From Pseudanabaena sp. PCC 6802 (GTDB lineage Bacteria; Cyanobacteriota; Cyanobacteriia; Pseudanabaenales; Pseudanabaenaceae): a stretch of 64,000 nucleotides of DNA. Each line of letters begins with the position of its first letter. Position 1 is the stretch's first letter. The position numbers were made by a program, and so were the translations under genes. Positions 13,932 through 26,282 of this stretch are shown piece by piece. The notes below the pieces were generated by a model. The model worked only from the letters and a program-made list of their open reading frames with translations. It was not told the origin of the DNA and ran no database searches. The stretch is taken from positions 1,061,966 through 1,125,965 of the forward strand of contig NZ_KB235914.1 in assembly GCF_000332175.1 (NCBI RefSeq), written 5' to 3'.

Positions 13932-14657
13932 ATGGCGGAGCGCCTGCAAAAAATTATTTCCCGTTTTGGCATTGCTTCGCGGCGCGAAGCCGAGCAAATG
14001 ATTCTGGCATCGCGGGTACGGCTGAATGGCACGATCGTGACTGAACTTGGCATAAAAGCAGATCCAGCCAGCGATCGCATAGAAGTTGACGGTAGGTTAA
14101 TTAACCAGGCGCGTTCTCCCCAAAAAATCTATTTACTCCTAAATAAACCTGTGGCGACGATCTGTACCCGTCGCGATCCGCAGGGCAGGCGAACCGTGCT
14201 GGACTTGCTGCCACCGCAATACCAACATCTCTACCCAGTGGGGCGGCTTGACTATAACAGCAGCGGAGCTTTACTTCTGACGAATGATGGTGACTTTGCT
14301 AACAGCCTCGCCCATCCCCGCCACCACATAACTAAAACCTATGAAGTGTGGGTGCGCGGTCAGATCGATCTCGAGGTACTGCAAATCTGGCAGGCTGGGG
14401 TTGAGTTAGATGGCAGGTTAACCCTACCCTGCGAAGTGACAGTTTTGACGCGAACCTCAGATCGCACCCAGTTGCAGATCGTGCTAAAAGAAGGGCGCAA
14501 TCGCCAGATTCGCCGTATCGCCGAGCAGTTAAATCATCCAGTTATGGCATTACATCGCGTGGCGATCGCTGAAATTAACCTCGGCAACTTACCTGTAGGG
14601 AAATACCGCCACCTCACTAAACCAGAAGTCCAGCAAACTGGATGGCTGATGGGATAA
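13932..14657 (+). CDS. RsuA/RluB-family rRNA pseudouridine synthase
   Basis: 241 residues. An S4 RNA-binding domain occupies residues 1-60 (ERLQKIISRFGIASRREAEQMI). The catalytic domain has the motif PVGRLDYNSSGALLLTNDG with the essential Asp, NKPVATICTRRDP, KTYEVWVRG and KEGRNRQIRRIAEQL. It isomerises a specific uridine in ribosomal RNA; the RluB/RsuA branch modifies 23S helix 89-90 or 16S U516 type sites. Cyanobacteria usually have a single member of this type, so I leave the target open. It lies 12 bp after the sugar nucleotidyltransferase gene. Confidence 0.92.
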   Translation: MAERLQKIISRFGIASRREAEQMILASRVRLNGTIVTELGIKADPASDRIEVDGRLINQARSPQKIYLLLNKPVATICTRRDPQGRRTVLDLLPPQYQHLYPVGRLDYNSSGALLLTNDGDFANSLAHPRHHITKTYEVWVRGQIDLEVLQIWQAGVELDGRLTLPCEVTVLTRTSDRTQLQIVLKEGRNRQIRRIAEQLNHPVMALHRVAIAEINLGNLPVGKYRHLTKPEVQQTGWLMG

Positions 14658-14690
14658 AAGCACGGTTAAGATTTGTGGCATAATAGGGCT

Positions 14691-14850
14691 GTTCGTAAAA
14701 AACGGCTGTAGCTGGAATCTGTTACGAACACGCCGAGGGGCGCTCGGTGTCAGGACGCGGAGACCTCTGCGATCTGCAAGTCAGTGAAGCGTTAAGCCCG
14801 CACTGTATGCGTAGCATTAGTGACGGGAGTCGTCACTCTAGTTTGGAGTG
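14691..14850 (+). ncRNA. Highly structured leader or small RNA upstream of rodZ
   Basis: At least five stems are visible in 160 nt: GTTCGTAA/TTACGAAC (14691-14698 with 14722-14729), CCGAG/CTCGG (14733-14737 with 14743-14747), CGCGGAG/CTCTGCG (about 14756-14770), GTGACG/CGTCAC (14820-14825 with 14831-14836) and CACTC/GAGTG (14834-14838 with 14846-14850). The last two share CAC at 14834-14836, so they exclude each other. The final stem covers the GGAG that would be the ribosome binding site of the TTG start at 14858. This suggests a translation-controlling leader. Alternatively it is a remnant of the right end (guide-RNA region) of an IS200/IS605-type element; I recall similar words there but cannot verify this. 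No matching Rfam family is recalled with certainty. Confidence 0.6.
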
Positions 14851-14857
14851 AAGCTAG

Positions 14858-15871
14858 TTGAGTGCTGTGAATACTAATTCTAACCAGTCAAGTAAATTAG
14901 CCGAGATCGGAGCGCAACTCAAACAAATGCGCGAGTCAAAGCGCATGTCTATTAGTCAAGTTACGGCGAAAACCCTAATCGCAGAGCGCCATTTGCGGGC
15001 GATCGAGGAAGGGAATCTGGATTCGTTACCCGAGCCGATCTACGTCCAAGGATTTATTCGCAAGTACGGTAAGGCACTAGGTCTAGAGGGTTTAGCAGAG
15101 GATTTCCCAGTGACCAGCGAACCAAGCCCTCAAAACTGGTCTAGTTCCCCTGCGGCGGAGCTAAGACCATTGCATTTGTACGCGCTCTATATCCTGATCA
15201 TTGCTGGTGCGGTGAGTTTGCTGGCATCACTCCTGAACCCATTGTCTAACAATCGCGTCAACGAAGGTCAGACAAATCTGAGTCCATCAGCAAGGGTTGC
15301 TACCAATGCAGGTCAAGGGAATCAGGCTAAGCCCAAACCAACACAAGGCCCAACCGTGGCGACTAAGCCTGCTCCTAAGCCAACCCCTGCCCAACCTAAT
15401 GCCCAGTCTAATGTCAAACCTAAGCCTAATGCTCCCACTAATGCTCAAGCATCTAACGATAGCAACTGGGCTGACTTTAGCAATCTAGTTAATGCCAGCA
15501 GTAACGTCAATCCCGCCTTCAATTTCTCAGGAGATAAGCCTGTCAACGTCGGGATTGCCATGACCAATCAGTCATGGTTGCGCGTAACTGTAGATGACAA
15601 GATTGATTTTGAAGGCATTCTATCAGAAGGTACGCGTAAATCCTGGTCTGCAAATCAAAGTATCGTGGTTCGTGCTGGTAATGCAGCGGCTGTATCTGTT
15701 ACTTTTAACCAGACCCCTTCCAAGGTATTGGGTGCCGAAGGTGAGGTAGTAGAGCAGACATTTGACAAAAACAAGCAGACTAACACTTCTGAGAGTTCAG
15801 ATAGCAACAATACCACTCCTACTACCAGTCCATCTGACAATACACCAACCGCCCCCCGATCGCCCCAATAA
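14858..15871 (+). CDS. RodZ-like cell-shape protein
   Basis: 337 residues. The cytoplasmic N-terminus holds a helix-turn-helix of the RodZ type (LAEIGAQLKQMRESKRMSISQVTAKTLIAERHLRAIEEGNLDSLPEPIYVQGFIRKYGKALGL region, about 13-78). One membrane segment follows at about 105-128 (HLYALYILIIAGAVSLLASLL). Then comes a Pro/Asn/Thr-rich periplasmic linker (130-210) and a C-terminal DUF4115-like beta domain (SWLRVTVDDKIDFEGILSEGTRKSW). RodZ links the MreB cytoskeleton to the wall synthesis machinery. The likely start is TTG at 14858, preceded by GGAG inside a hairpin; a GTG at 14867 is the alternative. Translation may therefore be controlled by the upstream structure. Confidence 0.85.
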   Translation: MSAVNTNSNQSSKLAEIGAQLKQMRESKRMSISQVTAKTLIAERHLRAIEEGNLDSLPEPIYVQGFIRKYGKALGLEGLAEDFPVTSEPSPQNWSSSPAAELRPLHLYALYILIIAGAVSLLASLLNPLSNNRVNEGQTNLSPSARVATNAGQGNQAKPKPTQGPTVATKPAPKPTPAQPNAQSNVKPKPNAPTNAQASNDSNWADFSNLVNASSNVNPAFNFSGDKPVNVGIAMTNQSWLRVTVDDKIDFEGILSEGTRKSWSANQSIVVRAGNAAAVSVTFNQTPSKVLGAEGEVVEQTFDKNKQTNTSESSDSNNTTPTTSPSDNTPTAPRSPQ

Positions 15872-24551: not shown

Positions 24552-26282
24552 CTAGAATAAAAAGTAACGTTGCGCCATTGGTAAACTGGTGGCGGGTTCG
24601 CAGATTAGCAGTTCGCCATCAGCGCGCACCTCATAGGTTTCTGGATCGACTTCCATCTGTGGCAAGGCGGTGTTTAGTTTCATATCCTGCTTGCTCAGTT
24701 GCCGCGTTCCCTCTACTGCCACGGTTGGTTTAGCTAGTTTCAGATGACTGAGGGTATCTCTTTCTAATGCCATCTGCGAGACAAACGTCAGAGAAGTTGC
24801 CGATCGTGCGCCACCATAACTGCCAAACATGGGTCGCATATGTACGGGCTGAGGCGTGGGAATACTGGCATTGGCATCGCCCATCTGCGCCCAGGCGATC
24901 GCGCCACCTTTGATTACCATTTCTGGCTTCACGCCAAAGAAAGCGGGTCGCCACAGACATAGATCGGCTAGTTTGCCTGCTTCGATCGAGCCGACATGCT
25001 GGGCGATGCCGTGAGCGATCGCGGGATTGATCGTGTATTTGGCAATGTAGCGCTTGGCTCTAAAGTTATCGTTTTGCGATGATGCTTCCACTGTCCCCGC
25101 TTGGGGAGAAGCGAGAAATCCGCGCTGCACCTTCATCTTGTGCGCGGTTTGCCAGGTGCGAATAACTACCTCACCTACTCGGCCCATTGCCTGAGAATCG
25201 GAGGAAATCATACTGAATGCGCCCAGATCGTGCAGGATATCCTCGGCGGCGATCGTTTCGCGGCGGATGCGCGATTCGGCAAAGGCAACATCTTCGGCGA
25301 TCGCGGGATCGAGGTGATGGCAAACCATCAGCATATCGAGATGTTCGTCCAGCGTGTTCAGCGTATAGGGGCGAGTGGGATTGGTAGAAGATGGCAGTAC
25401 GTTCGCCTCGCCGCACAGCTTGATAATATCGGGAGCGTGGCCGCCTCCTGCCCCTTCGGTATGGTAGGTGTGAATCGTGCGCCCCTTGAAAGCTGCGCGG
25501 GTTGTCTCTACAAACCCAGCCTCATTGAGAGTATCCGTATGAATTGCCACCTGGACATCGTAGCGATCTGCGACGCTCAAACAAGTATCGATCGCTGCGG
25601 GTGTCGTCCCCCAGTCTTCGTGCAGTTTCAGTCCCATCGCTCCTGCTTCGATCTGCTCCACCAGAGCTTCGGGCTTGCTACTGTTCCCCTTACCCAGGAA
25701 ACCTAAATTCATGGGGAAAGCATCGGCAGCCTGCAACATGCGATAGAGATTCCAAGGCCCAGGAGTACAGGTGGTGGCATTGGTGCCAGTGGCAGGGCCT
25801 GTGCCGCCGCCGATCATAGTGGTGATACCGGAAGCGATCGCGACTTCGATCTGCTGCGGACAGATAAAGTGAATGTGGCTGTCAATGCCACCAGCAGTGA
25901 GAATTTTTCCCTCTCCGGCGATTACCTCCGTGCCGGGGCCGATGATAATATCAATCCGATCTTGTATGTAGGGATTGCCAGCTTTCCCAATCTTGTAGAT
26001 CCGTCCGTCTTTAATGCCCACATCAGCCTTGACAATTCCCCACCAATCGAAAACGATCGCGTTGGTAATTACCACGTCTACGGCACCGCCAGCATTGGTA
26101 ATCGGCGATTGCCCCATGCCATCGCGGATGACTTTCCCGCCCCCAAATTTCACCTCATCGCCGTAGGTGGTGTAGTCCCGCTCTACTTCGATAAATAATT
26201 CCGTATCTGCGAGGCGGATGCGATCGCCCACGGTGGGACCAAAGGTTTCGGCATAGGCGCGGCGATCCATTCTGTAACTCAT
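24552..26282 (-). CDS. ureC: Urease alpha (catalytic) subunit
   Basis: 576 residues. The N-terminus [29 protein letters not shown] and the active-site blocks [14 protein letters not shown] (two nickel-binding His), [16 protein letters not shown] (carbamylated Lys) and [15 protein letters not shown] are intact. MVCHHLD carries the flap Cys-His and [13 protein letters not shown] the final Asp ligand. It hydrolyses urea to ammonia and carbamate as part of the (UreABC)3 complex. Here ureC is separated from ureB by two unrelated frames. ureA and the accessory genes ureD-G are not in the window, in line with the scattered urease genes of many cyanobacteria. Confidence 0.97.

Follow-up and report, generated by a model that had tools for sequence, protein, structure and literature searches.

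The rodZ leader of Pseudanabaena sp. PCC 6802 as a probable relic of a non-autonomous IS200/IS605-family element carrying only an omegaRNA gene

The gap between rsuA and rodZ in Pseudanabaena sp. PCC 6802 holds a series of hairpins, one of which lies over the GGAG in front of rodZ, and this raises the question of whether the leader is a switch that evolved for rodZ or has another origin. An earlier note on this DNA had claimed the former, i.e., a translational switch acting as a riboswitch, as a thermometer, or by protein binding, and had named as a rival a TnpB-type guide RNA or IS605 right-end remnant that now serves as the leader. After comparing the window (the whole stretch of 64,000 nucleotides that was analysed) with related genomes, we consider it likely, with a probability of roughly 0.8, that the rodZ leader is what remains of a non-autonomous element of the IS200/IS605 family with an omegaRNA gene as its only gene, and not a dedicated rodZ switch.

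Hairpins in the rsuA-rodZ gap

The features of the locus are given below; those of the RNA and the element are predictions.

13932..14657, + strand: rsuA-type pseudouridine synthase (S4 and PseudoU_synth_2; Pfam), the upstream neighbour
14653..14678, + strand: upstream block, about 80% common with the degraded copy at locus L020 (sequence comparison)
14679..14684, + strand: -10-like box CATAAT (where stand-alone copies have TATAAT-like boxes)
14691..14729, + strand: H1, the 5' hairpin specific to stand-alone copies, with stems GTTCGTAA/TTACGAAC (outer) and CGGC/GCTG (inner) (covariation)
14730..14750, + strand: H2, hairpin ACGCCGAG/CTCGGTGT, corresponding to the AVGHPV codons of tnpB (covariation, tnpB comparison)
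14755..14792, + strand: H3 domain, closed by ACGC (14755-14758) and GCGT (14789-14792) (alignment to model R2)
14797..14827, + strand: terminal hairpin, the IS605-type right-end hairpin or omegaRNA scaffold end (comparison, covariation)
14832..14836, + strand: right terminus of the element, GTCAC (conserved TGTCAC end in copies; empty-site boundary)
14834..14850, + strand: CACTC/GAGTG hairpin over GGAG (14845-14848), outside the conserved structure
14837..14852, + strand: guide-equivalent, first 16 nt of the flank (guide length from PMC8612924)
14858..15871, + strand: rodZ (HTH_25 and RodZ_C; Pfam), start TTG 14858 or GTG 14867

The -10-like box starts 21 nt past the rsuA stop codon and the element ends 21 nt ahead of the rodZ TTG. 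Since the element fills nearly the whole gap, it lies almost certainly within the rodZ 5' UTR or promoter region. The start of rodZ is uncertain between TTG and GTG because homology with its relatives begins near residues 4 to 7. Truncation of rsuA by the element was considered and rejected, as rsuA ends normally and its C-terminus is comparable with that of relatives. The block at 14653-14678 (GGATAAAAGCACGG...) spans the rsuA stop codon, and L020, from another genome in which the family occurs, is an unrelated locus. A consensus promoter scan at the window copy found no full sigma-70 site, CATAAT being without a consensus -35.

The earlier note described two stems that share three bases and are therefore exclusive, and sequence inspection bore this out: GTGACG (14820-14825) pairs with CGTCAC (14831-14836), CACTC (14834-14838) pairs with GAGTG (14846-14850), and CAC at 14834-14836 is common to both. 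The second stem does cover the GGAG before the rodZ TTG, as had been claimed, and the mean unpaired probability of GGAG was 0.14, which is below 97% of 300 random flanks (as low in 3% of them). This occlusion depends on flanking bases, is borderline by chance and is suggestive at best. GTGACG is a segment of the 3' arm of the right-end hairpin of the transposon, whereas most of CACTC/GAGTG is flanking DNA past the element end at 14836. Neither of the competing stems is part of the conserved structure of the covariance family described below, and in an alternative-pairing covariation test the RBS stem was not conserved, consisting of flanking DNA that differs in every family copy. The 176-nt leader folded with -65.7 kcal/mol (z = -2.26), a moderate excess, with 4 of 200 shuffles as good; it is the sequence comparison between copies, and not the folding energy, that excludes a chance origin of the structure. 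A search of Rfam 15 gave no match at the gathering score in the leader region, and none up to E = 5. Elsewhere in this cyanobacterial window, Rfam recorded a full-length match of 89.3 bits to RF02514 (5' ureB small RNA) at 25841-26130 (+).

If the leader had evolved as a switch for rodZ, with CACTC/GAGTG hiding the RBS and its competitor freeing it, both stems and the poorly accessible GGAG would find an explanation. However, a covariance model match to the leader was absent from all 29 other rodZ loci (rsuA lies upstream of rodZ in 25 of them), and relatives of the element adjoin unrelated genes (before ndhM, petD, and rplA) or are convergent to genes. We take this distribution to mean that there is no conserved link between the element and rodZ. 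With an RBS stem drawn from flanking DNA, no Rfam match, and homologues that occur as IS605 material unrelated to rodZ, the outcome that the earlier note had itself set against a switch, such an origin is very improbable.

The RNA family and its relation to tnpB

Two loci without tnpB, L074 and L055, could be aligned with the window along the full 160 nt, the -10-like box and H1 included, and in all three sequences 12 of 12 H1 pairs were standard, though most differ among them. A covariance model built from these three (R1) found full-length copies in four genomes: 10 above 115 bits in G038, nine above 90 bits in G062, three above 75 bits in G109, and three above 70 bits in G248. The L074 copy was also found in Synechococcus sp. 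M44_DOE_062. Because R1 contained the window, a second model (R2) was built from 20 copies with the window left out. R2 matched the window at 14674-14835 with 119.7 bits (E about 2e-38, E-values being rough), the next best match in the 64 kb reaching 5.8 bits. Over 35 pairs in the 20 copies, 96% of cells were paired, going down to 31 to 48% when the structure was slid, and 15 pairs showed double-sided changes compared to 7.6 +/- 1.3 in shuffles (0 of 500 shuffles as high); the structure was partly drawn from the same sequences, which favours the proportion of paired cells but not the double-change count to such a degree. Window positions 14674-14836 are thus a member of a covarying structured RNA family. 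With a rigid DNA pattern, the genome collection returned only one already known copy and the viral contigs none, and a search of phages and plasmids turned up nothing but the tnpB right end on a single plasmid. A divergent sub-family (L127, L179, L184, L185, and L192) carries the H1 motif GAGAGTTTCCCTGATTT in place of GGAATCTG, the latter being the internal-loop motif at 14714-14721 in the window; one of its copies lies between rplK and rplA.

By DNA search, the 44-base block at 14794-14837 was found again elsewhere in the own genome, and 35 of 390 cyanobacterial genomes had it as well. On a Chondrocystis plasmid, the right-end block is covered by a gene whose annotation reads 'ISSoc10, orfB transposase', and at many loci the block is the 3' end of an intact tnpB, whose stop is the TAG in TATGCGTAG. 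Because intact tnpB genes carry the block at their 3' ends, 14794-14837 is identified, by comparison, as an IS605-type right end, at which a TnpB omegaRNA terminates. The likeness extends further upstream: of the 23 pairs that make up H2, H3, and the right-end hairpin, almost all (22 to 23) were kept in 16 of 20 tnpB loci aligned to R2, and 18 to 19 in the other four. For H1, 0 to 7 of the 12 pairs could form at the 20 tnpB loci, GGAATCTG was present in none, and the corresponding tnpB DNA encodes the TnpB zinc ribbon. The tnpB-locus alignment was fitted to R2, so that these percentages lean towards the model, but the letters of H1 are plainly missing in most loci. H1 was accordingly rejected as a usual part of tnpB omegaRNAs. 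With a 23-pair core kept at tnpB loci and H1 missing there, the scaffold from H2 to the right end is that of an ordinary omegaRNA, and H1 with the -10 box is a 5' module seen only in stand-alone copies.

The rival named in the earlier note, a TnpB-type guide RNA or IS605 right-end remnant as leader, is therefore upheld in that the right end and the scaffold are common to tnpB genes; it was incomplete in that the whole 160-nt unit is a recurrent stand-alone mobile RNA gene. No tnpB coding sequence overlaps the window copy, for which reason we designate it a stand-alone variant, which probably works like a canonical omegaRNA rather than being one.

Ends, insertion sites, and the window copy

Both subterminal palindromic ends are present in family copies, which are mostly 220 to 340 nt long when standing alone. 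Nearly all full copies start with TTAGCT (read as TTAG and CT) and end with TGTCAC, and the hairpin that comes after TTAGCT is similar to that of the right end. A similar left-end hairpin stands ahead of other IS-type reading frames in G038. The copy at L112 interrupts a reading frame, and its empty site was recovered in G062 and G109, where GCGGATCAACTTAG and TTTTAATC are contiguous (TTAG directly followed by TTTTAATC) with no element between. On its right side the empty site is unambiguous; on the left it extends for only 14 nt, after which another stretch of ~930 nt follows in both genomes. In this one copy, judged against two related genomes, the insertion adjoins a short motif without target duplication. 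The ~930 nt found 14 nt left of the empty site (L204 and L208, in G062 and G109) are absent from G038.

No transposase or tnpB reading frame was found inside the window copy or the elements of its relatives. Ten TnpB queries detected no tnpB in the ~2-kb flanks of most copies (a few copies have short flanks), and L114 and L119 lie near an independent tnpB. In several copies (L111, L117, and L123) the last base coincides with the 3' end of a convergent gene; the right-end TCA supplies the TGA stop of that gene, whose original TAA may be represented by the TTA of the insertion motif.

In the window copy the right end is present and a left-end hairpin was not recognised, so that this copy is probably immobile. 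It is the only full copy in its own genome, which also contains 16 tnpB matches, most of them with GIDLG / E / DRDxNA motifs, and six tnpA matches. A short right-end-type relic without the RNA body lies at L002 1446-1540 (own genome C5:876339-876433) and looks terminal-only. When the guide-equivalent 16 nt were searched against the own genome, one further site with 2 mismatches was found (a control pattern gave four), which does not exceed chance, and no second target next to a regulated promoter.

A single full copy with a lost left end and no conserved partner gene is also what would be expected of an inert fossil, transcribed at most by read-through and without effect on rodZ. We regard this as decidedly unlikely, given that the conserved stems have been kept in a sequence unlike all other copies, the -10-like box has been kept, and the element occupies nearly all of the space ahead of rodZ. 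A more active role has also been weighed, in which rodZ would be tuned by a host TnpB that binds the scaffold within its mRNA or cuts it there, the RBS being in guide position. The intact scaffold and the tnpB matches of the genome would suit such a domesticated, TnpB-responsive leader, as would the known processing by TnpB of RNA that lies upstream of its scaffold (PMC10278001), but the arrangement is not conserved at rodZ and we consider this role unlikely. Binding of TnpB in trans to the window leader, taken by itself, is possible. The fullest version of the idea, a cyanobacterial transposon family that would have a guide RNA as its sole gene, complete with own promoter and dedicated 5' hairpin, that would use TnpB and TnpA in trans, and of which one copy would have been domesticated so that TnpB loading on the rodZ leader tunes the gene, is likewise improbable.

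For the favoured reading, a relic of a non-autonomous element, we propose the following course. Normally, the guide RNA of TnpB is excised from the tnpB message. Since a stand-alone element has no such message, a promoter of its own would be needed, and in mobile copies the RNA would be transcribed from this promoter, with its last ~16 nt, from flanking DNA, acting as guide. The RNA would then load TnpB supplied in trans, and the protein-less element would thereby be retained at its donor site, as full elements are by virtue of their TnpB. This scheme draws on ISDra2, whose TnpB binds RNAs of ~150 nt, in which the tnpB 3' end and the right end are followed by ~16 nt of flank, and cleaves the donor site, once vacated, beside its motif (PMC8612924); TnpB also makes its guide RNA from its own message by processing upstream of the scaffold (PMC10278001), and its activity favours element spread (PMC11870625). 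The window copy would have lost its left end, become immobile and been captured, the element promoter and RNA body becoming the rodZ promoter and 5' UTR. Supply of a promoter and 5' UTR is the simplest and most likely effect at rodZ; nothing in the evidence shows a role of the leader hairpins as a sensor.

Significance and comparison with known systems

An element reduced to its ends and a guide-RNA gene that has a start of its own would illustrate how RNA-guided nucleases acting in trans can be of benefit to non-autonomous elements. Its stand-alone copies would be natural nuclease-free guide-RNA genes for testing acceptance by TnpB, and through such insertions host genes would acquire promoters and structured 5' UTRs in finished form, which seems to be the case at rodZ.

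Stand-alone omegaRNAs have reportedly been seen for IscB, and these would be alike in that the guide RNA is encoded apart from its nuclease, whereas the scaffold is that of IscB there and of TnpB here. We know of no description of the IscB RNAs as bounded mobile elements. With the omegaRNA (reRNA) of TnpB, as in ISDra2 (PMC8612924) and the ISSoc10-like tnpB of cyanobacteria, the family shares a scaffold from the tnpB 3' end, the right end, and a guide position in the flank; unlike them, it has no tnpB, and H1 and its own start would replace processing from the tnpB mRNA (PMC10278001). The guide RNAs of TldR, the nuclease-dead TnpB repressors, are also TnpB-derived and located beside a host gene (PMC13418256), but at rodZ there is neither an adjoining TldR gene nor a second genomic guide target. 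In the literature, with key OMEGA papers incompletely covered, we found no description of stand-alone TnpB omegaRNA elements.

The closest anatomy is that of the palindrome-associated transposable elements (PATEs) of Haloquadratum, which are protein-less, related to IS605, and have near-terminal palindromes (PMC3119063). One of them, HqIRS71, has kept part of the C-terminal region of a tnpB-type transposase as non-coding DNA (PMC3119063). The family described here has the same protein-less, IS605-derived anatomy; it differs in its conserved covarying RNA gene, -10-like box, and dedicated 5' hairpin, and in occurring in cyanobacteria rather than archaea. By anatomy the family is PATE-like, and what sets it apart is a conserved RNA gene with a predicted start of its own.
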